A DNA stretch of 64,000 nucleotides from Thermoproteota archaeon (GTDB lineage Archaea; Thermoproteota; Nitrososphaeria; Nitrososphaerales; Nitrosopumilaceae). This document shows positions 12,218-35,249 of this stretch, piece after piece. The stretch's first letter is position 1. Each line of letters begins with the position of its first letter. The notes below the pieces were generated by a model, which was not told where the DNA came from, made no database searches, and saw only the letters and a program-made list of their open reading frames with translations. The position numbers were made by a program, and so were the translations under genes. The DNA is taken from contig QQVN01000004.1 of the NCBI GenBank assembly GCA_003352285.1, forward strand, positions 1-64,000. Direction: 5' to 3'.

Positions 12218-13084
12218 GTGAATAGAATAGGTGTAGATCTAGGAGGAACAAAGATTGAATCAATTCTCGTAGATGAAAATTTTCAAGTTATACAGAGAAA
12301 AAGAATACCTACACCGCAAAATGACTATGAAAAAATTTTGGAATCAATCTCGAATATGATTCAGGAGTTAAAGACTGAATCTTGCAGTATAGGAATTTGC
12401 ACTCCTGGAGCAATTTCAAAGAAAACAGGTCTAATAAAAAACAGCAACACACAATGCTTGATTGGCAAGTCTCTAAAAGAAGATCTTGAATCAAGATTAG
12501 GACAAAAAATTTCTATGGATAATGATGCAAACTGTTTTGCAATTGCCGAGGCAACAATGGGTGCTGCAAAAAATTTTGGAATTGTATTTGGGGTTATAAT
12601 GGGAACTGGTGTAGGTGGAGGCATTGTAATTGATGGAAAAATTCATCATGGACGAACCAATATTGCTGGAGAATGGGGACATCACATTTTACACACAAAT
12701 GGAAACAAGTGTTACTGTGGAAAAAATGGATGCGTTGAGACATACATCTCAGGTCCTGCATTAGAGAAAAACTGGCTTGAAATTACTGGAAAGGATCAGA
12801 AATTAGCTGAAATTATTCAAAATATCGGCTCTGATGAAAAATCTTCACTATGGAAAAAAGAATTCTTAGAAAACTTTGGGCGTTCTCTTGCAAATGTAAT
12901 AGACATACTAGATCCAGATGCTATTGTTTTGGGTGGCGGAGTTTCAAACATTCCATTTCTGTATGATGAGGGAAAGGATTTTGTTTACAAATGTGTCTTC
13001 AGTGATCTAATTGATACTCCAATCTTACAAAATAAACTTGGCGACTCTGCTGGAGTTTTTGGTGCTTGCCTGTTAGAATCCTAG
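12218..13084 (+). CDS. ROK-family sugar kinase
   Basis: 288-aa ROK protein with the N-terminal phosphate-binding loop DLGGTK (residues 7-12), a DNDANCFA active-site motif, GTGVGGGIVIDG, and the ROK zinc motif CYCGKNGCVE near residue 170. Members phosphorylate glucose, N-acetylglucosamine or N-acetylmannosamine; no HTH is present, so it is an enzyme and not a repressor. GTG start, with box A ACTTAAG at 12188-12194. Its end overlaps the convergent response regulator stop by 4 nt. Confidence 0.88.
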   Translation: MNRIGVDLGGTKIESILVDENFQVIQRKRIPTPQNDYEKILESISNMIQELKTESCSIGICTPGAISKKTGLIKNSNTQCLIGKSLKEDLESRLGQKISMDNDANCFAIAEATMGAAKNFGIVFGVIMGTGVGGGIVIDGKIHHGRTNIAGEWGHHILHTNGNKCYCGKNGCVETYISGPALEKNWLEITGKDQKLAEIIQNIGSDEKSSLWKKEFLENFGRSLANVIDILDPDAIVLGGGVSNIPFLYDEGKDFVYKCVFSDLIDTPILQNKLGDSAGVFGACLLES

Positions 13085-13464
13085 CATGAAATTTTCATAG
13101 AACCTACAACAGCTTTGTTAATTGCAGAAACTACATCATCAATTTCATATGGCTTGTAAAGTACATCATTGGCATTAAGATCTTTTAATCTTTCTTCAGT
13201 TTTAGTAGTTTTGTCTGCTGTCACCATTATGACATTTGCATCTGGATCAATTTTTCTTATGCCCTGCAATCCATAAATTCCATCATAATCTGGCATCATT
13301 ACATCAAGTAATACAACGGATGGTTTTAGCTCTTGGTATTTCTCTACTGCTTCTTTACCATTTTTGCCAGTTCCAATCACATTGAATCCTTTAATCTCTA
13401 GAAATTCTTTGAAGATCTCAACAGTATCTAAATCATCATCTACAATTAGCAGGCTAGGTTGCAT
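13081..13464 (-). CDS. Stand-alone CheY-like response regulator
   Basis: 127 aa, only a receiver domain. Acidic pocket Asp9-Asp11, phosphoacceptor Asp54 in LLDVMMPDYDG, signalling Thr82 in VMVTADK and the conserved Lys in YKPYEI (about 104). No output domain. Strikingly similar to the receiver domain of the TrmB-REC fusion at 19531-20721 (same LEIKG, KNGKE, MMP-YDG and VIMVTAD blocks). Its start lies within the end of a 55-aa ORF (19-nt overlap) whose promoter carries the region's shared dyad, so it is probably the second cistron. Confidence 0.93.
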   Translation of the reverse strand: MQPSLLIVDDDLDTVEIFKEFLEIKGFNVIGTGKNGKEAVEKYQELKPSVVLLDVMMPDYDGIYGLQGIRKIDPDANVIMVTADKTTKTEERLKDLNANDVLYKPYEIDDVVSAINKAVVGSMKISC

Positions 13465-13646: not shown

Positions 13647-13668
13647 TGTTTGTAATTTTTTACATACA
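13647..13668. promoter_or_regulatory. Shared dyad operator, copy a (22 bp)
   Basis: TGTTTGTAA-N4-TTACATACA. Left edge is 34 nt from ATG 13613 on the minus strand. The spacer is one base shorter than in the other three copies. Proposed to control the 55-aa ORF and response regulator. Confidence 0.6.
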
Positions 13669-13723: not shown

Positions 13724-14623
13724 TTAAGCAAAAGTCAATTCTAATTGTGGAGTGTTACTCTGTGCTTCTCTTGCAGCAAAGTTAATTCTGCCTGGTTGGT
13801 CTTCGTTACTCTTCATGATGATCCAGCCATTGTTTTCCATTCCAGAAAGAAATGCTTCAATGTCGCCAGTTACATCAAATTCTATCCATTGACCATTTAC
13901 TGAATTGTCGATGTTAGTCACTGCAGTTGGTGCTGGATTAAATACTCCTCCATTCCAACTTGCACAGTCTGTTTGTGTAGAACAATCCCATGTTACTCCT
14001 GTCTGTTCGCCTACTAGGCTACTAAATGGAGCATTCATGCTTTTTCCTTCATCCCAATTGGCACCAAGGGCATGGATGTTGATGGTTTGTGAATCTGACC
14101 ATTTTCCGTCATTACTAATTACAAAAAGCTTTAGCGTAGCGGATTTGAGTGATTTTCCTTGGGTTACTGCTTCTAGATCATTTTGATTAAATGCAATCAA
14201 CGCTCTGTTATTTGTCTCGCCTTGTCCCATCACTCGAAGTATATCATTTGAGCCTTCGTTGGAATTTCGAATTCCTTCTCTGACAAAACTGTCTTTTGCC
14301 GGATAGATTGTGGCTGTAAAGTCATCTACTTCATACTTTGGTCCTTTATTGAATAGTTTCAGTGAAGAGAAGTCCTCAGTTTTTTGCATTACTTGGACTG
14401 TTCCAACTTCAGCATGTTGCTGAACGTAGGTTCCTACTGGTATTGAGTCTGTGTGTGAATCATAGCACAAGCCATTATCACATAGTGTTGTGTCTTGTGA
14501 AGTTACATTATCCATTCCAGAATCCAAAACAAAAAAGGATACACCAGAAATAGATACACCTGCAATTATCATCATACTAAGTAGTTTTTTTCCAAACCAT
14601 TCAGTCTGTGTTGTAGTGTTCAT
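13724..14623 (-). CDS. Secreted/anchored DNRLRE-domain surface protein
   Basis: 299 aa. Residues about 12-31 form one hydrophobic segment after a charged start (signal anchor or signal peptide). The body from about 100 to 299 resembles the DNRLRE/CBM96-like beta-sandwich domain: TIYPAKDSFVREG, NRALIAFN, SATLKLFV, WDEGKSMNAPF, WIEFDVTGDIEAFLSG and a C-terminal TPQLELTFA strand. Such domains stabilise extracellular proteins or bind carbohydrate. Cys pairs (CDNGLC; CSTQTDC) suggest disulfides outside the cell. ATG at 14623 has box A CTATACTA at -24 to -31 and the shared dyad directly upstream. Confidence 0.82.
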   Translation of the reverse strand: MNTTTQTEWFGKKLLSMMIIAGVSISGVSFFVLDSGMDNVTSQDTTLCDNGLCYDSHTDSIPVGTYVQQHAEVGTVQVMQKTEDFSSLKLFNKGPKYEVDDFTATIYPAKDSFVREGIRNSNEGSNDILRVMGQGETNNRALIAFNQNDLEAVTQGKSLKSATLKLFVISNDGKWSDSQTINIHALGANWDEGKSMNAPFSSLVGEQTGVTWDCSTQTDCASWNGGVFNPAPTAVTNIDNSVNGQWIEFDVTGDIEAFLSGMENNGWIIMKSNEDQPGRINFAAREAQSNTPQLELTFA

Positions 14624-14657: not shown

Positions 14658-14680
14658 TGTTTGTAATGCAGTTACACACA
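14658..14680. promoter_or_regulatory. Shared dyad operator, copy b
   Basis: TGTTTGTAA-N5-TTACACACA. On the minus strand it abuts the box A CTATACTA (14647-14654) and lies 35 nt from ATG 14623. Position just upstream of box A and the BRE suits an activator that helps recruit TFB/TBP (inference). Confidence 0.65.
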
Positions 14681-14743: not shown

Positions 14744-17713
14744 TTAGTTTTTGTTTGCTAAAAATGATGCATCAATCATTCCGTAACCAATATCATTTGA
14801 TGCCTCAGTTGTAGTTTTTACTGTATTGGTTTTCATTTGTTCTAGCACATCTACTGGTGATGCATCTTGATTTCCTTGCAGCATCAATGTAGCCAATCCT
14901 GCCACATATGGCGTTGTTGCGGATGTTCCATAGAACAAGTCTCCATTGTATGCAAGTGTAGTAACACCGTCTGGGCCTACTACATCTGGGGCTAGTTTAC
15001 CGTGGTTTGTTGGACCTTGTGAGCTAAATGACTCTGTCTTACCGTTTTGACTATTTACTGCGCCGACTACTATGGCACCTCTTGCATCTGCAGGAACTAC
15101 CACGCTACTTTTAGCAATTGGGTATTCTACTACATTGTTTACTGAAAAGACCTCTAGAATAGTATCTCTTGGAATGTTTGCAGCCGTCAAGTCGCCATCA
15201 AGCTGGTTTCCTGCATAGGAAATGCCGATTGCATACAGTCCTTCCATCTGTGGAACAAAGTGAATGCTCTCAAAGCTTCTATCAGATTGAACTTTTTGAA
15301 TATTAGCAGAATAGTCTACGATATTTCCTGTTGGATCAAGTAGTATCAAGTCAAAGTCTGTAACATCCTTTAGTGGGTTGTTCCAGTTCAGATAAACCAT
15401 AATTGGTTGTTGGGCCAAGACTTGGCTTTTTGATACGGATATAGACATGCCTTCGTCGTACTCGTCAAATTCATGCCATGCATTTAGGTTTGAATCAACA
15501 AATTTTCCTTCCCAGTGTTTTTCAGCAAAGTTTCCAGAAGGAACAACAAATGTAATTCCATGTGATATTGCTTCTTCTACCTTCTTTGTGATGTGACTGG
15601 TTCCATCAGTTGGTAAGTTGGGCCATCCTGCTGCCATTGCAATGACATCTACTTCATTTGCAATTGCCTCATCGACTGCGGCAACAAACTCTACGTCAGT
15701 ATCCATCTCATATAGATACAAGTCAGCATCTGGTGCAACATCGGTGATAATTTCAGCTACTGCTGTTCCGTGCTCCAAACCGTTGGTTCCGCCGTGATGT
15801 TGCTGTGTCCATAAACCTGATGAACCACCTCTAAATGATTTAGTGTCTGCGATGTTGTCTGCAATCTTTTCATTGGATAAATCAAAACTAAGATCTAGTA
15901 CTGCAACTTTGACATCTTTGCCTGTGATACCTTTTGTATGAACAATATCTGCATTAATAGAGTATACACCTTCGGATACTTTATGATCCATTCTTTCTTC
16001 TTTGATAATACCTTCTAATTGGGAAAGTTTTTCAAGTTTATTTTGTAATTGGATTAATTTTTCATATTTTTTAACTTCTACATCACTAAGATTTTTGTTT
16101 AAACTTCGTGTATCTTTTTTAATTGAGTTATCATCTGAAACATTATCTTGTTTTGTGGAATCAGAACTTGAGCTGGTTCTTGCTTTTCTACTTTCATCAG
16201 TAGATGATTCTAATTGGCGTGTCTCAGTATTGGGATCTTTTACTTCTGAATCAGAACTTTCTTCGATTGACTTGGAGTTTTCAGTACTATCTGTAGATTC
16301 TTCACTAGATTCAATTGTTCTTTCACTAGATTCAGCATCAGCGTTGTTATCTTCATTTATCTCATTATTGGTAGATTCTTCGCCTGTAATTTTGATGATT
16401 TCTTCATTGATTGACTTTTCCAACGAAGCAATTTCTAACTTGTTTTCTTTGTAAATTTTGTACAAGTTGTATGTAACTTGGCTTGAAGTTCTCTCATTTG
16501 AGGATTCACCATCTAATTTTGATAGCTCTGAAACCACCTTAGTTTGAATACCGTCAATTTGTTTCTCTATGCCTGAGTATTCTTTTATTGTATTTTTAGA
16601 TGCCTGATTTTCTTTGGAGACTAGATCATTCAAACTATCTAAAATCCCTTCATCAGGTATTACATCCACATAATTTGATTTAATATCATAAAATATTGGC
16701 TTGTTTACATCTGTTAGTGAAACTGGAGTTCGAATAAAGTCTACTCCAGACATAGCCATAACTTCGTTCAGATTTTCAACATTCAAAGTCATTTGTACAA
16801 GTGAACCTGACATTACATCAATCTGACCTTTAGCCATTAATTTTTCTAAGAGTTTTGGATTAATCTTTGATAATTCAACTACAATTTGCGTCTGACCATT
16901 TTTGAACTTTAATCCAAATTTATTGCCATTTTCATTACCGTTTCCGTTACCATTACCGTTTCCGTTACCATTACCGTTTCCGTTACCATTACCGTTTCCG
17001 TTACCATTACCGTTTCCGTTACCATTACCGTTTCCGTTACCATTTGCTTTGTTTTCAATTACGTCTTTTACAATTGCTTTTCCGTTATCTGTCTTCAAAA
17101 GCTTCTTTAGATTATTATCCAAATTCATGTTATCTTTTGCCAAAGACTTAAGATTTTTCATATGATTTTGTTTTTCTGGATCATCCAGAGCATTAAGATT
17201 ATCATTTTTTAATTTTAAAGAAATTTTTACATTGTTACCATTATTTCCGTTACCATTACCATTTCCTGCATCACTTGTTGCTCCACTTGCAGCGTTTCCT
17301 GCATCACTTGTTGCTCCACTTGCAGCGTTTCCTGCATCACTTGTTGCTCCACTTGCAGCGTTTCCTGCATCACTTGTTGCTCCACTTGCAGCGTTTCCGG
17401 CATTACTTGCTGCACTGGATGCTGCTCCACCGGCATTACTTGCTGCACTGGATGCTGCTCCACCGGCATTACTTGCTGCACTGGATGCTGCTCCACCGGC
17501 ATTACTTGCTGCACTGGATGCTGCTCCACCGGCATTACTTGCTGCACTGGATGCTGCTCCACCGGCATTACTTGCTGCACTGGATGCTGCTCCACCGGCA
17601 TCAACTGGAAGCGCACTAGCAACTCCTGCACTGCTAAAACTCCAAGTGAGTAGGATTGCAGTTAGGAATACTACTAGGACCCGTGAACTTTGTGAAGTAT
17701 TGGTAGTTTTCAA
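14744..17713 (-). CDS. Secreted subtilisin-like (S8) peptidase with long low-complexity N-terminus
   Basis: 989 aa. Signal peptide at about 10-35 (RVLVVFLTAILLTWSFSSAG...ALP). Then six AGGAASSAASN and four AGNAASGATSD units, an Asn/Gly (GN)n tract, a region with a receptor- or propeptide-like strand, a Ser/Glu/Asp-rich acidic stretch (about 440-560), and an S8 domain. Catalytic Asp is in VAVLDLSFD (about 605), His in LEHGTAVAEI (about 648) and Ser in GTSATTPYVAG (about 926). The triad is intact. The start is TTG 17713; the nearby ATG is out of frame and stops after three codons. Box A AACTTATTC lies at -24 to -32 with the shared dyad behind it. Confidence 0.87.
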   Translation of the reverse strand: MKTTNTSQSSRVLVVFLTAILLTWSFSSAGVASALPVDAGGAASSAASNAGGAASSAASNAGGAASSAASNAGGAASSAASNAGGAASSAASNAGGAASSAASNAGNAASGATSDAGNAASGATSDAGNAASGATSDAGNAASGATSDAGNGNGNGNNGNNVKISLKLKNDNLNALDDPEKQNHMKNLKSLAKDNMNLDNNLKKLLKTDNGKAIVKDVIENKANGNGNGNGNGNGNGNGNGNGNGNGNGNGNGNGNGNGNENGNKFGLKFKNGQTQIVVELSKINPKLLEKLMAKGQIDVMSGSLVQMTLNVENLNEVMAMSGVDFIRTPVSLTDVNKPIFYDIKSNYVDVIPDEGILDSLNDLVSKENQASKNTIKEYSGIEKQIDGIQTKVVSELSKLDGESSNERTSSQVTYNLYKIYKENKLEIASLEKSINEEIIKITGEESTNNEINEDNNADAESSERTIESSEESTDSTENSKSIEESSDSEVKDPNTETRQLESSTDESRKARTSSSSDSTKQDNVSDDNSIKKDTRSLNKNLSDVEVKKYEKLIQLQNKLEKLSQLEGIIKEERMDHKVSEGVYSINADIVHTKGITGKDVKVAVLDLSFDLSNEKIADNIADTKSFRGGSSGLWTQQHHGGTNGLEHGTAVAEIITDVAPDADLYLYEMDTDVEFVAAVDEAIANEVDVIAMAAGWPNLPTDGTSHITKKVEEAISHGITFVVPSGNFAEKHWEGKFVDSNLNAWHEFDEYDEGMSISVSKSQVLAQQPIMVYLNWNNPLKDVTDFDLILLDPTGNIVDYSANIQKVQSDRSFESIHFVPQMEGLYAIGISYAGNQLDGDLTAANIPRDTILEVFSVNNVVEYPIAKSSVVVPADARGAIVVGAVNSQNGKTESFSSQGPTNHGKLAPDVVGPDGVTTLAYNGDLFYGTSATTPYVAGLATLMLQGNQDASPVDVLEQMKTNTVKTTTEASNDIGYGMIDASFLANKN
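16936..17042 (-). repeat. 18-nt tandem repeat encoding (GN)n
   Basis: About six near-perfect 18-nt units encode an uninterrupted Gly-Asn dipeptide tract inside the subtilase N-terminal region. In frame; length change would keep the reading frame. Confidence 0.85.
17265..17594 (-). repeat. Two families of 33-nt tandem repeats in the subtilase gene
   Basis: Four copies of one 33-nt unit (17265-17396, encoding AGNAASGATSD) abut six copies of a second (17397-17594, encoding AGGAASSAASN). Copies within each family are essentially identical in nucleotides. Both units are 11 codons, so they probably descend from one ancestor. No spacers are present, so this is not a CRISPR. Confidence 0.92.
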
Positions 17714-17749: not shown

Positions 17750-17772
17750 TGTCTGTAATGCCATTACATACA
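17750..17772. promoter_or_regulatory. Shared dyad operator, copy c (between divergent genes)
   Basis: TGTCTGTAA-N5-TTACATACA. The left edge is 37 nt from TTG 17713 of the subtilase (minus strand). The right edge is 34 nt from ATG 17806 of a small ORF leading into the histidine kinase (plus strand). Both sides have an AT-rich box A at -24 to -31, so one site may serve both directions. Confidence 0.65.
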
Positions 17773-17883: not shown

Positions 17884-19446
17884 ATGAGAATACGGACAAA
17901 ACTAGCCCTAGAAATCATAATTCTCGTTAGCTTAATCGGAATGGTGTCTTTTATAGCGCTAATCAACACAAAACAGGTCCAAGACACATTTACTAATCTT
18001 AGCGATCAGACTTTGCCAATTCTTGATTCTCTTACCCAAATGAGGCAGTCTGCTACTCAAGTTACTTCAAGAACTATGGAGATTCTGCTTTTAGAAGAGG
18101 AGTCTAAAACTGCCCAGGGAATGGAACTTGCCGAAATAGAAGAAGAACTTGAAATGCAGTTTTACCAAATAGAAAAAGCAAAGTCCTCATTTAATCAAGC
18201 ATATTCTAAATATTCCAATTTAATGGATTATCACTTTCCAAATCAGAACAGCAATTCTAATGAAATTGCAGAAAAATGGAATGATCTAATTATAATTTCA
18301 AACACCATGATAAAGTTAAAAACTAACGGTGCAAGTGGAAACCAAATTCTTGCTTTATCTGAAGACTTTCATCAGGCACAACAAAACATCAACAATGTAA
18401 TTGATTCAACAGTTAGTCAGACAGCTGCAAATGTAAGTGATACTAAGGACTTTGTTGATTCTCTAGTATCCAATACAACTTTGACAATTTTTATCACACT
18501 TAATGTCTTTATTGCAGCATCACTAGGCATTCGATACCTGATTTTAAAATCAATCTCAAACCCTCTTCAAAAATTAAGAAAAACCACGCATACAATTGCA
18601 ACTGGGGAATTTATCAAAAATAACATGAAAGGAGACGATGAAATATCTGAACTTGCAAGAGACATTGACGCAATGTCTTCAGAGCTTTCTAAATTAAATA
18701 AAACAATTGTTGCCAATGAACGACTATCTTCTATTGGAAATCTTGCCAGCCGTTTAGCACATGACCTGCGTAATCCTCTCTCAGTCATTAAAAACTCTGT
18801 TGAAATAATGAAGGTAAAGCTTGATCCTATAATGGATGAAAAGACTAGTCACCAAATGGCAATGGTTGGAAGAGCAGTCGCAAGAATGACTCATCAGATA
18901 GATGATGTCCTTGATTACGTGAATGTATCTGAGCTACAAATGGAGCGTCATTCCTTGTCTACAATTATTGAATCTTCAATTCTTAATACGACAGTACCTT
19001 CTCATATCCGCATAAATCTGCCAAAAAACAGTGCCTCAATTAATTGTGATGCATTCAAACTGGAGATTGTATTTTCTAACATGATAAACAATGCCATTCA
19101 GGCAATAGATGGAGAAGGAACAATTTCATTTAGAATTCATGATAAAGACGATTATGCAATAGTTGAGATGGAAGATTCAGGCCCAGGAATCCCAGATTCT
19201 GCAATGGAAAAGATCTTTGAGCCGCTATTTACTACAAAGCAAATTGGCACAGGATTAGGTTTGGCCAGCTGTAAAAGTATTATCGAAAAGCATGGTGGAA
19301 AAATTGAGGTCTCAAATCATCCTACAACATTTACAATAATGTTGCCTAAAGCGGAAAAGACCAAAAAAACAGAGTTTGAGGAGGCCACAGAGGATATTGA
19401 CTCTAAAAGCCCATCAAAATTAACCATGACTAGAGAAAATTCCTAG
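17884..19446 (+). CDS. Membrane sensor histidine kinase (HAMP-HisKA-HATPase)
   Basis: 520 aa. TM1 at about 9-27, an extracytoplasmic helical sensor (about 28-195) resembling four-helix-bundle chemoreceptor sensors, TM2 at about 196-215, and HAMP (about 217-270). The H-box is in RLAHDLRNPLSVIKNS (phospho-His about 293). ATPase motifs: N-box NMINNAIQA (about 400), G1 DSGPGIPD (about 430), G2 GTGLGLA (about 455). The only histidine kinase in this window, near a stand-alone receiver and a TrmB-REC protein that lack partners of their own, so it is their likely phosphodonor. Confidence 0.94.
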   Translation: MRIRTKLALEIIILVSLIGMVSFIALINTKQVQDTFTNLSDQTLPILDSLTQMRQSATQVTSRTMEILLLEEESKTAQGMELAEIEEELEMQFYQIEKAKSSFNQAYSKYSNLMDYHFPNQNSNSNEIAEKWNDLIIISNTMIKLKTNGASGNQILALSEDFHQAQQNINNVIDSTVSQTAANVSDTKDFVDSLVSNTTLTIFITLNVFIAASLGIRYLILKSISNPLQKLRKTTHTIATGEFIKNNMKGDDEISELARDIDAMSSELSKLNKTIVANERLSSIGNLASRLAHDLRNPLSVIKNSVEIMKVKLDPIMDEKTSHQMAMVGRAVARMTHQIDDVLDYVNVSELQMERHSLSTIIESSILNTTVPSHIRINLPKNSASINCDAFKLEIVFSNMINNAIQAIDGEGTISFRIHDKDDYAIVEMEDSGPGIPDSAMEKIFEPLFTTKQIGTGLGLASCKSIIEKHGGKIEVSNHPTTFTIMLPKAEKTKKTEFEEATEDIDSKSPSKLTMTRENS

Positions 19447-19530: not shown

Positions 19531-20721
19531 ATGGCACAGGAAGCGGTAGTTGATTTTGAGAAAGAAGGAATCGAACTTCTCAAGGATTTTGGATTGGATG
19601 AAGATGAGGCCAAGGTGTATCTTGGATTACTTAGAATGGGCTCTTCAAAAGCAAGTGAAATTAGTCATTTTACACAAACAGATAGGGTTAGAGGTTACAA
19701 AATTTTAGAAAATTTAAAAAATCAAGGATTCGTCACATCGACTCTTTCTTCACCAATTAAATTTTCAGCAAATGAACCAAAAGAAATTCTCATAGATATT
19801 ATTAAAAAAAGAAAACAAGAAACAGAAAAGCTTGAAAACAATGTCGAGAAATTACTAGAAATCCTTAACAAAGTAAAAACAAATCAACAGACTGCAAATT
19901 TACCAAAGCTGACAGTAATTTCTGGTAGAGCAAACATCTATGATCAAATTATCAAAATCATTGATGAAACAACAGATGAACTCTATCTAGTTACCACAGT
20001 TTCAGATTTAATTCGAATGTACTATACTGACATTCCAGAGGCAATTAAGAAAGCTTCCAAACGAAATGTCGTAATAAAACTAATGACAGAACTTGAGATA
20101 TCAACAAAGTTAGAATGCGCAAAGCGATTAGGTGTAAATTATTTTAAAATAGCAAAACTTCCTTCACAAGGAAGAATTATCTGCAATTCATCCCAAGTTC
20201 TAATGTCAGGATATACTTCTTCTACATCTAGTCAAAGCACGAGTGATGATTCTGCATTGGTAACAAATTCAGATGAAATAAGTGGTAACATGAGAAGTCT
20301 TTGTAAATTTATGTGGAAAATTGGTAAAGAGATCAGAGTAGATAAAACAAAAGATGAGCCATCACAGCAAAAAGAGACTACCGCACTAGTAGTGGATGAT
20401 GATCCTGACGCCGTAGAAATGTTTTCAGATTATTTGGAAATAAAGGGAATTCAGGTTGTTGGAAAATGCAAAAACGGCAAAGAAGGTGTAGATGTGTATG
20501 AACAGCTAAGACCCGATGTAGTATTTTTGGATATAATGATGCCTGAATACGATGGATTTTATGCATTAAAGAAAATTCGAGAGATTAATCCTGAATCTAA
20601 AGTAATCATGGTTACTGCAGACTTTACCTCTGAAACAAAGAAAAAACTTCGAGAAATGAAGCCAACTGATGTAATTTACAAACCCTATGACGTCGAAAAA
20701 ATTCTTGGGCAGTTGTTTTAA
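19531..20721 (+). CDS. TrmB-like DNA-binding protein fused to a receiver domain
   Basis: 396 aa. Residues about 10-90 form a TrmB-type winged helix (LKDFGLDEDEAKVYLGLLRMG...SEISHFTQTDRVRGYKILE...LKNQGFV) followed by a coiled coil. Residues about 125-270 match the TrmB effector/phospholipase-D-like region (LYLVTTVSDLIRMYY...LMTELEIST). Residues 284-396 are a complete receiver with acidic pocket VVDDDPD, phosphoacceptor in FLDIMMPEYDG (about 333), and VMVTAD and YKPYD. TrmB proteins usually sense sugars; here phosphorylation may control DNA binding. A degenerate copy of the regional dyad lies 34 nt before the ATG. The stop is immediately followed by the next gene's TTG. Confidence 0.9.
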   Translation: MAQEAVVDFEKEGIELLKDFGLDEDEAKVYLGLLRMGSSKASEISHFTQTDRVRGYKILENLKNQGFVTSTLSSPIKFSANEPKEILIDIIKKRKQETEKLENNVEKLLEILNKVKTNQQTANLPKLTVISGRANIYDQIIKIIDETTDELYLVTTVSDLIRMYYTDIPEAIKKASKRNVVIKLMTELEISTKLECAKRLGVNYFKIAKLPSQGRIICNSSQVLMSGYTSSTSSQSTSDDSALVTNSDEISGNMRSLCKFMWKIGKEIRVDKTKDEPSQQKETTALVVDDDPDAVEMFSDYLEIKGIQVVGKCKNGKEGVDVYEQLRPDVVFLDIMMPEYDGFYALKKIREINPESKVIMVTADFTSETKKKLREMKPTDVIYKPYDVEKILGQLF

Positions 20722-21837
20722 TTGATAAAAAATAACATCTTTTTCATTACTGGAATATTATGTGTGGTTATGTTTTTTTCTGTCATACCTGTATCCTATT
20801 CTGATTCCGGAAATGTAAATTGGCAACTAGTCTATGTAACTGGACATTCAAAGTGTACTCCAACAGAAACTACAAAAACCAATGAATTTTTTGCCGTCAC
20901 TGAACAATATTTTGAAATGTACAAGTTCACTGCAAACGGAGCTGAACCCAAATGCATGGCCATCTCTGATCTGTCCAAGAGTTATTTTCAAAAAGATATC
21001 CAGCTTGTAATAGTGATTTTTGATGATTCTTCAGGAAAGAATCTCTTAGCAAAGCAGGGTTATGAGGGATTTTATTCTCATCTTGGAGATGATCGTGACA
21101 AAAAACATACTATAATGATTAAGGATAGTCCAAACTTTGATTCATACTACGATTCTACTGATACTGCCTGGCTATTGAGCAATCATCTATCAAAGTTTGT
21201 TCTTTACTACAAGGGATACTCTCAACAAGAAATTCAAAGGATTCTACAACCAATTGAAATGCGTTATGGAAAATGCGTGGGTTATGAATATACTACCAAC
21301 GTTTGTGATACCGTAAGGACTAACGTAAAGCCCGACAAGATTGGAAAATATTTTACTGTTATGACTCCATTTGAGAAAGCAGTAGGAAACAAATCCCTTA
21401 ACCATCTTCCAAGTGATCTTACCACTAATGAAACCATATTGAATCTTCAAAGAGAAATTACTACTTGGTGGATAAATGATAAAATCACTAATGAAGATTA
21501 TTTAAAATCTGTAAAATATCTTGTCAATGCACCTCCTCCTGTAAATAACACTAAAAATATCTCAAGTATTGATTTGCCAAATGGTTTTATCATGATAGAT
21601 TTGGTAAAAAAGAAAACTACGGTAAATCAACCAAGTCAATTTCAGGCCTTTGCAATAGGTGATAATAGTAATGATGTTTTTTCATACATCCCATTTGAAG
21701 CAGATGTTCTCAAAGAAGATTCATCAGAAATTCCTGATTGGTTTAAGATGAGAGCAAAACTATGGTCTGAGAGAAGAATAAGTGACATGATCTTCTTTGA
21801 TGGTTTAGAATCACTCATTAGAACAAATTCAAAATAA
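20722..21837 (+). CDS. Secreted hypothetical protein with two W-type motifs
   Basis: 371 aa, TTG start directly after the TrmB-REC stop, so the two are coupled. N-terminal signal peptide at about 5-27 (FFITGILCVVMFFSVIPVSYS). Not a recognised family. Two related helical motifs are present: TTWWINDKITNEDYLKSVKYL (about 247-268, quoted with one end trimmed) and WFKMRAKLWSERRISD near the C-terminus (about 343). The same pattern recurs in the protein at 22987-23592. Scattered Cys residues could form extracellular disulfides. May be the sensor-side or surface partner of the signalling genes (inference). Confidence 0.8.
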   Translation: MIKNNIFFITGILCVVMFFSVIPVSYSDSGNVNWQLVYVTGHSKCTPTETTKTNEFFAVTEQYFEMYKFTANGAEPKCMAISDLSKSYFQKDIQLVIVIFDDSSGKNLLAKQGYEGFYSHLGDDRDKKHTIMIKDSPNFDSYYDSTDTAWLLSNHLSKFVLYYKGYSQQEIQRILQPIEMRYGKCVGYEYTTNVCDTVRTNVKPDKIGKYFTVMTPFEKAVGNKSLNHLPSDLTTNETILNLQREITTWWINDKITNEDYLKSVKYLVNAPPPVNNTKNISSIDLPNGFIMIDLVKKKTTVNQPSQFQAFAIGDNSNDVFSYIPFEADVLKEDSSEIPDWFKMRAKLWSERRISDMIFFDGLESLIRTNSK

Positions 21838-21895
21838 AAAAAGAACCCCATTTCCTGCAAAACGAGGGGGCATGGTGCATGGAGGGTGAGGTTCT
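21836..21895 (-). ncRNA. Candidate small RNA with closing stem and U7 terminator
   Basis: On the minus strand, dyad copy d (edge 21929) is followed by box A AAATATTA at 21919-21926. A compact element then starts at 21895, exactly 34 nt from the dyad edge. Its ends AGAACCUCA and UGGGGUUCU pair over 9 bp (one U-G), and a U7 tract follows directly (template A7 at 21836-21842). The interior is C-rich (CACCCUCC and CCCCCUC) with a possible CAUG-CAC-CAUG mini-hairpin. No convincing protein is encoded. Expected length is about 60 nt. The 3' end reaches the stop codon of the convergent secreted-protein gene. Confidence 0.45.
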
Positions 21896-21928
21896 AGGTA
21901 TACTAGGAATCTTTGGAATAATATTTTC

Positions 21929-21951
21929 TGTTTGTAATCCCATTACAAACA
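21929..21951. promoter_or_regulatory. Shared dyad operator, copy d
   Basis: TGTTTGTAA-N5-TTACAAACA, the most symmetrical copy (perfect 9-bp arms). On its left it faces the candidate small RNA at the standard distance. On its right the CBS-protein gene starts 91 nt away and has a closer box A of its own (AAGATATG, 22011-22018). Confidence 0.65.
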
Positions 21952-22041: not shown

Positions 22042-22908
22042 ATGCAGCAAAATCAGATAGGCATGACTCCGCAAATAAAGGCTCATTCCCTGTCACATAA
22101 ACCAATTAGCTTACCTCAAAATTCTACAATTTACGATGTTATGAAAAAGATGTATGAGAAAAACATCTCGCGATTGCTCCTAACACACAGAAACCAATTC
22201 ACTGGAATTGTAACTCAAAAGGATATTGGGAAATTTCTACTAGCTCAAAAAAATAATTCACCGATTTCAAAGACTCCAGTATCAAAAATCATGAACTCTA
22301 TCGTATACGTTGATGAAAACGCTTCTGCAATAGAATGCTCTGAGCTTATGCTAAAGCACCAGATCAGCTCCCTTGTAGTAAAAAAAGACAATAAATTCAG
22401 AATCTTTACAAAAAATGATCTAACAAAATATTATGCACAAAATTGCAATGGAAAGTTCAAAGTCTTTGAGTTAATGACAATTGGACAATTCTTTTGCAAA
22501 CAGACAAGCTCAATTATGGATGTCCTATCAAACATGATATCATACAATGCATCACGATTAATAGTAAAGGACGATGATGAAGTTCCAGTTGGAATTATTA
22601 CATTTAGAAATTTTATTAATATAGCGTTAGAGTTCTCGCAAAAAGAAAAAGGACCAAAACATGTTGTAAATAATTTTGATAATTTCTTTGCATCAAAAAA
22701 TGGCTACGGAAGAAGATGCCTTGCAAATGAAATAATGACACGAGACATTATCGTGGTTAATGCTTGGGATGATCTTACAAAGGCTGCTCAGATAATTTTA
22801 GATAACAGGGTTCATGGAATTGGCGTGGTCTCAAAGGGTGAAATAATTGGAATCATTAGCGAAAAGGACATAATTCGAGCCTTGACCATGGACAGCCAAG
22901 AAGACTAG
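22042..22908 (+). CDS. Four-CBS-domain protein
   Basis: 288 aa made of two Bateman modules (CBS pairs). Each CBS has the typical strand-helix ending with a GIVTQKDIGKF / FTKNDLTKYY / GIITFRNFINI / GIISEKDIIRAL block. CBS pairs bind adenine nucleotides or similar ligands and report energy state. No catalytic or DNA-binding domain is attached. Box A AAGATATG at -24 to -31 supports ATG 22042 and a leaderless mRNA. Role here unknown; proximity to the dyad regulon suggests, but does not prove, co-regulation. Confidence 0.9.
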   Translation: MQQNQIGMTPQIKAHSLSHKPISLPQNSTIYDVMKKMYEKNISRLLLTHRNQFTGIVTQKDIGKFLLAQKNNSPISKTPVSKIMNSIVYVDENASAIECSELMLKHQISSLVVKKDNKFRIFTKNDLTKYYAQNCNGKFKVFELMTIGQFFCKQTSSIMDVLSNMISYNASRLIVKDDDEVPVGIITFRNFINIALEFSQKEKGPKHVVNNFDNFFASKNGYGRRCLANEIMTRDIIVVNAWDDLTKAAQIILDNRVHGIGVVSKGEIIGIISEKDIIRALTMDSQED

Positions 22909-35159: not shown

Positions 35160-35249
35160 TAGCGGGGAGTAGATTTGAACTACTGATTTGCGGGTTATGA
35201 GCCCGCCGGGATGACTTTGCCCATAATTGTCTGACTTCCCCACCCCGCT
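35160..35249 (-). tRNA. Initiator tRNA-Met (CAT) with a 15-nt D-loop insertion
   Basis: Acceptor AGCGGGG pairs with CCCCGCT, discriminator A. Anticodon arm GCGGG-CTCATAA-CCCGC has the three G:C pairs of initiators, and A1:U72 is the archaeal initiator pair. T arm AGTAG-TTCAAAT-CTACT. Total 90 nt; the D arm is 33 nt rather than 17-18. Removing ACAATTATGGGCAAA restores an 18-nt D arm with G18-G19, so an archaeal D-loop intron is likely. CCA is not encoded. A TATATA box at 35273-35278 lies 24-29 nt upstream. Confidence 0.92.

Follow-up and report, generated by a model that had tools for sequence, protein, structure and literature searches.

A predicted regulated small RNA gene at a regulon palindrome beside a TrmB-REC two-component cluster in a Nitrosopumilaceae archaeon

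In a 64-kb stretch of DNA from a marine, ammonia-oxidising archaeon of the Nitrosopumilaceae, analysed here as a whole and called the window, copies of one palindrome lie at a nearly fixed distance before protein genes. One copy, dyad d, is followed at that distance by no protein gene, raising the question of what it controls. On its minus-strand side we observed a compact hairpin that closes onto a run of seven T, opposite the end of a gene of the presumed regulator's own cluster (Table 1).

Table 1. Features of the minus-strand element and its surroundings; positions are those of the window.
Feature	Position	Strand	Details and basis
Dyad a, 21-mer variant	13647..13667	.	33 nt (hand count) before in-frame ATG 13613 (-), ahead of receiver-domain gene 13081-13464
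Dyad b, one mismatch	14658..14680	.	34-35 nt before CBM96 gene 13724-14623 (-)
Dyad c	17750..17772	.	36-37 nt before subtilase gene 14744-17713 (-)
Membrane histidine kinase (4HB sensor, HAMP, HisKA, HATPase)	17884..19446	+	Pfam; likely TrmB-REC partner
TrmB DNA-binding domain fused to receiver domain (TrmB-REC, P0003)	19531..20721	+	Pfam; ortholog occurrence
P0001, function-unassigned opposite-strand gene	20722..21837	+	Stop codon 21835-21837
T7 tract, predicted 3' end	21836..21842	-	Sequence; overlaps last two stop-codon bases of P0001
Hairpin RNA body	21842..21895	-	Fold; end-pairing plus T-run test
Predicted transcription start, A	21895	-	T at 21896 precedes; 33 nt after 22-mer; inferred from spacing of dyad-driven start codons
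TATA-like box AATATTAT	21918..21925	-	Centre about -26/-27 from predicted start; sequence; similar boxes at other dyad promoters
Dyad d, palindromic regulator site	21929..21951	.	Core GTTTGTAATSSSATTACAAAC at 21930-21950; perfect GTNTGTAATNNNATTACANACA match
CBS-domain protein, four CBS stretches	22042..22908	+	Pfam, ORF list; start 90 nt from plus side of dyad d

A palindrome regulon and its copy without a gene

The pattern GTNTGTAATNNNATTACANACA matches perfectly at 6 places in the genome, against none for a reversed control pattern, and two further sites carry one and two mismatches, respectively. The genes driven by these dyads encode a CBM96 protein, a subtilase, receiver-domain proteins and others. 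On about 30 other promoter sides across the Nitrosopumilaceae (29 in one listing; two on bacterial contigs were left out of the count), the start codon stands 32 to 38 nt, mostly 33 to 37 nt, from the 22-mer, and this spacing is seen both in this genome and in relatives of other genera. It fits leaderless mRNAs with a TATA element at -26/-27, and many mRNAs of the regulon indeed appear leaderless. The targets of the probable regulon, which share one palindrome and a strict spacing, are mostly receiver-domain proteins and secreted enzymes. In one case (L148, L149), a single palindrome lies between two divergent receiver-domain genes, 33 to 34 nt from each start, as a symmetric bidirectional promoter. 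Exceptions to the spacing were also found. At one dyad, a receiver gene starts about 74 nt from one side and another ORF 38 nt from the opposite side, and a further dyad (L105, G000:C2:34941-34963) drives from its minus side a 52-aa ORF (MGIAIKPTKIKQSVYLLVPKN...) at about 49 nt, which is kept in the congener.

Dyad d, which reads GTTTGTAATGGGATTACAAAC on the minus strand (21950 to 21930), is the one copy without an ORF at the standard distance when both sides are checked. The initial annotation had found no protein gene at the standard distance; on the minus side there is indeed no start codon 32 to 38 nt away, and no ATG, GTG or TTG at the start of the hairpin. Instead of an ORF, the hairpin begins there, 33 nt from the 22-mer, and dyad d thus combines a perfect match with the regulon distance to a start site predicted from that spacing. 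Read along the minus strand, the palindrome is followed by the TATA-like box, the T/A step at 21896/21895, a 5' arm, a C-rich interior, a 3' arm and T7. The 5' arm AGAACCUCA (21895 to 21887) pairs over 9 bp with the 3' arm UGGGGUUCU (21850 to 21842), and 34 nt separate A21895 from the palindrome core, so that direct reading of the sequence bears out both the proposed start of the element and the pairing of its ends. The two C-rich stretches that had been described, ACCCUCC and GCCCCCUC, are both present in the interior (21886 to 21851). The description of a stem directly followed by U7 holds for the seven T and needs correction for their position: since the first U is the last paired base of the stem, the stem is followed by U6. 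Among weaker dyads in relatives, several have an ORF at 33 to 34 nt and none has a strong hairpin with a U-run at the standard start. On a 16-nt promoter-box profile, which is a weak discriminator, the minus side of dyad d falls in the mid-range. A sigma-70 promoter scan is not applicable to archaea.

The transcript might instead encode a tiny protein, since an ATG at 21880 opens a frame of 20 aa (MHHAPSFCRKWGSFFILNLF). This ATG lies 48 nt from dyad d, resembling the 52-aa ORF at the other dyad, and the frame and its stop are kept in the congener. However, both substitutions found in the congener alter the peptide (R to M and K to N), the C-rich leader lacks a ribosome-binding site, and the frame passes through the hairpin and the T-run. 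We thus regard a coding function as very unlikely.

Fold, coincidence and conservation of the hairpin

The predicted RNA folds at -19.5 kcal/mol (RNAfold; z -3.5), and none of 200 shuffled sequences folded as well. Counting against the reading, the opposite strand is also predicted to fold here, at -17.2 kcal/mol. Among 307 structures adjacent to T-runs in the window, the hairpin ties for the lowest energy, and its outer helix is the longest among the twelve strongest. Moreover, it is the sole element on both strands of the window (128 kb of strand sequence) to pass a strict rule, under which the two ends must form a helix of 8 bp or more, 4 or more of them GC pairs, that closes directly onto a run of 6 or more T, at an energy of -14 kcal/mol or lower. 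Because the spacing of the palindromes predicts the transcription start independently of the hairpin, the odds of their coincidence can be estimated. Taking the frequency of such hairpins as one in 128 kb of strand sequence, tolerating a deviation of 5 nt and counting about 18 sides of palindromes, we arrive at about 0.001, a rough estimate of our own that was not computed by a tool; a chance coincidence is thus unlikely. A search of Rfam gave no match at the gathering score and none on the hairpin up to an E value of 5, and viral contigs and phage records gave no match. Elsewhere in the window, at positions 35168-35222 (minus strand), Rfam gives a partial match to tRNA that scores 31 bits. 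ARAGORN does not call it, and it may be a decayed tRNA gene or one that contains an intron.

These numbers bear on the notion that dyad d is a relic, or acts for the CBS gene on the plus strand, with an incidental hairpin and no minus-strand RNA of consequence. The CBS gene starts about 90 nt from the dyad, and the 52-aa ORF driven from about 49 nt indicates that dyad distances are not absolute. Against service to the CBS gene, a distance of 90 nt exceeds the usual range, and the plus side of dyad d scores far worse than the minus side on the dyad-promoter profile (-9.6 vs -1.2). A relic, in turn, would require a hairpin that is unique in the window to stand at the predicted start by chance. 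Either version seems quite unlikely to us.

We then compared the element with its counterpart in Nitrosopumilus sp. b1 (Nitrosopumilaceae), the only congener available, where the order of the parts is intact. A relative that keeps the dyad and loses the stem and U-tract, named at the outset as evidence against the RNA, was looked for in this genome; dyad, both arms and T7 are all unchanged in it. Two substitutions fall within the RNA, at 21855 and 21851, both in the interior, and the congener version folds at -18.1 kcal/mol. Identity over the RNA is about 96%, compared to about 95% for neighbouring coding DNA (34 of 659 positions differ in the CBS gene), so hardly above its neighbours that two genomes cannot prove selection on the RNA; between these two genomes in which the RNA is found the stem carries no substitution, and hence no covariation. 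A search of 250 family genomes for homologs returned the congener only, weak matches elsewhere being short fragments of dyad, TATA or T-rich sequence. Downstream of P0001 in seven relatives we found no dyad and no comparable hairpin, and the RNA is absent from other genera that have the kinase/TrmB-REC/P0001 cluster. The P0001 protein itself is 63% identical between the congeners, compared to 95 to 99% for neighbouring genes, pointing to fast evolution or allele replacement.

Taken together, a regulon switch standing at its fixed distance before a U-ended hairpin of about 55 nt suggests a small regulatory RNA that is probably made along with the cell's signalling genes. We put the probability that the element is a regulated small RNA gene, as predicted from sequence, at about 0.68. 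To that extent the initial annotation, which had proposed such an RNA, is upheld by the regulon promoter copy with regulon spacing, the lack of a protein start and the retention of palindrome, stem and U-run in the congener; its proposal for how the C-rich loop acts fared less well (see below).

The presumed regulator

The likely regulator of dyad d, acting as an activator, is TrmB-REC. We observed TrmB-REC in 13 of 150 family genomes (E 1e-80 or better) and perfect dyads in 10 of the 150, all 10 of which also have TrmB-REC (hypergeometric probability 2e-13, with genomes treated as independent despite shared ancestry). Three genomes have TrmB-REC and no perfect dyads, and one of these is a distant match of 39%. 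From this co-occurrence we infer that TrmB-REC binds the palindrome. The histidine kinase gene adjoins the TrmB-REC gene in most relatives that have the cluster, and P0001 has no Pfam or NCBIfam match. A two-component regulon under TrmB-REC is probable in Nitrosopumilaceae. Palindromes of the TrmB family located upstream of BRE/TATA activate promoters, and the position of the archaeal TATA likewise comes from that work (PMC4158304). In the regulons of Pyrococcus TrmBL1 and Thermococcus Tgr, too, the promoters that are activated have their palindrome upstream of BRE/TATA (PMC4158304); in contrast to these, the present system has another motif, its regulator carries a fused receiver domain and is encoded beside a histidine kinase, and one of its targets is a predicted RNA gene.

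The palindrome regulon, its spacing, the hairpin, the U-run and their conservation in one congener can be read from the DNA, and on them we build the following model. Phosphorylated TrmB-REC, encoded 1.2 kb away, would bind the palindrome, which lies directly before BRE/TATA, and activate minus-strand transcription from about 21895. RNA polymerase would then yield an RNA of 54 to 60 nt, one hairpin from end to end, stopping at T7. This RNA would be produced together with the proteins of the regulon, namely the subtilase, the CBM96 protein and the receiver-domain proteins.

Possible action of the RNA and its place among archaeal small RNAs

In archaea, tracts of 4 to 7 U terminate transcription and a hairpin is not needed (PMC8716108). 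As the polymerase stops at U-tracts without it, the hairpin is more likely to serve the stability or the action of the RNA than its termination. The same property weighs on a simpler account, in which the palindrome fires along the minus strand and the hairpin and U-run only halt antisense transcription into P0001 and the regulator genes, leaving a short RNA without function. Palindromes of this kind can indeed fire both ways, and the U-run ends exactly at the P0001 stop codon. For such a terminator or insulator, however, the U-tract would suffice (PMC8716108), with no need for a hairpin whose 9 bp enclose the entire RNA, beginning at the first base predicted for it. We consider this account unlikely and retain the small RNA gene as the preferred reading.

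How the RNA would act is a matter of more tentative proposals. Given the position of the P0001 stop codon, the RNA body is complementary to the sequence that immediately follows P0001, and the match is exact over the first approximately 58 nt after that codon. The simplest function is thus antisense control of the operon that encodes its presumed regulator. Facing the start of a putative 3' UTR of the kinase/TrmB-REC/P0001 operon, the RNA could tune the stability or the 3' ends of the regulator mRNA, and such action in cis is conceivable, at odds of well under one half. Action in trans through the C-rich loop may be entertained to the same degree. Pairing of this loop with Shine-Dalgarno-like sites, as had been suggested, has a precedent in Methanosarcina sRNA154, in which one of the loops masks a ribosome-binding site (PMC5867862). 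However, no second 20-nt complement was found genome-wide at up to 3 mismatches, and duplex energies between the loop and 172 start regions, a part of the genome, were no better than those of shuffled loops. Moreover, since many mRNAs of the regulon appear leaderless, these would lack Shine-Dalgarno sites. This part of the suggestion was thus not supported.

Similarly to the RNA predicted here, Methanosarcina sRNA154, sRNA162 and sRNA41 and Haloferax sRNA132 are short, lie between genes and show regulated expression (PMC5867862); the likeness is one of size, setting and proposed regulation. Unlike them, the present RNA is a single hairpin of 54 to 60 nt, occurs in Nitrosopumilaceae and stands at a TrmB-REC-associated site. 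The antisense RNAs of Haloferax volcanii offer a second parallel, as 26% of them overlap 3' UTRs (PMC5867862) and the present RNA likewise lies opposite a putative one; unlike these, it has a dedicated palindrome-controlled promoter and a compact terminal hairpin, and it faces the operon of its presumed regulator. A review of archaeal small RNAs makes no mention of Thaumarchaeota or Nitrosopumilus (PMC5867862), and a full-text search of open-licence papers returned no study of regulatory small RNAs in either.

One may picture a feedback loop through RNA, in which a two-component system of ammonia-oxidising archaea, made up of a histidine kinase and TrmB-REC, controls a hairpin RNA directed as an antisense against the 3' UTR of its own operon; the RNA would then have joined an older protein regulon recently and in a single lineage. 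This wider picture is rather doubtful. The element offers a predicted regulator and exact predicted ends. It also points to a probable TrmB-REC two-component regulon in Nitrosopumilaceae; for their phylum, a census covering 16 genomes lists just one HTH response regulator (PMC5847659).
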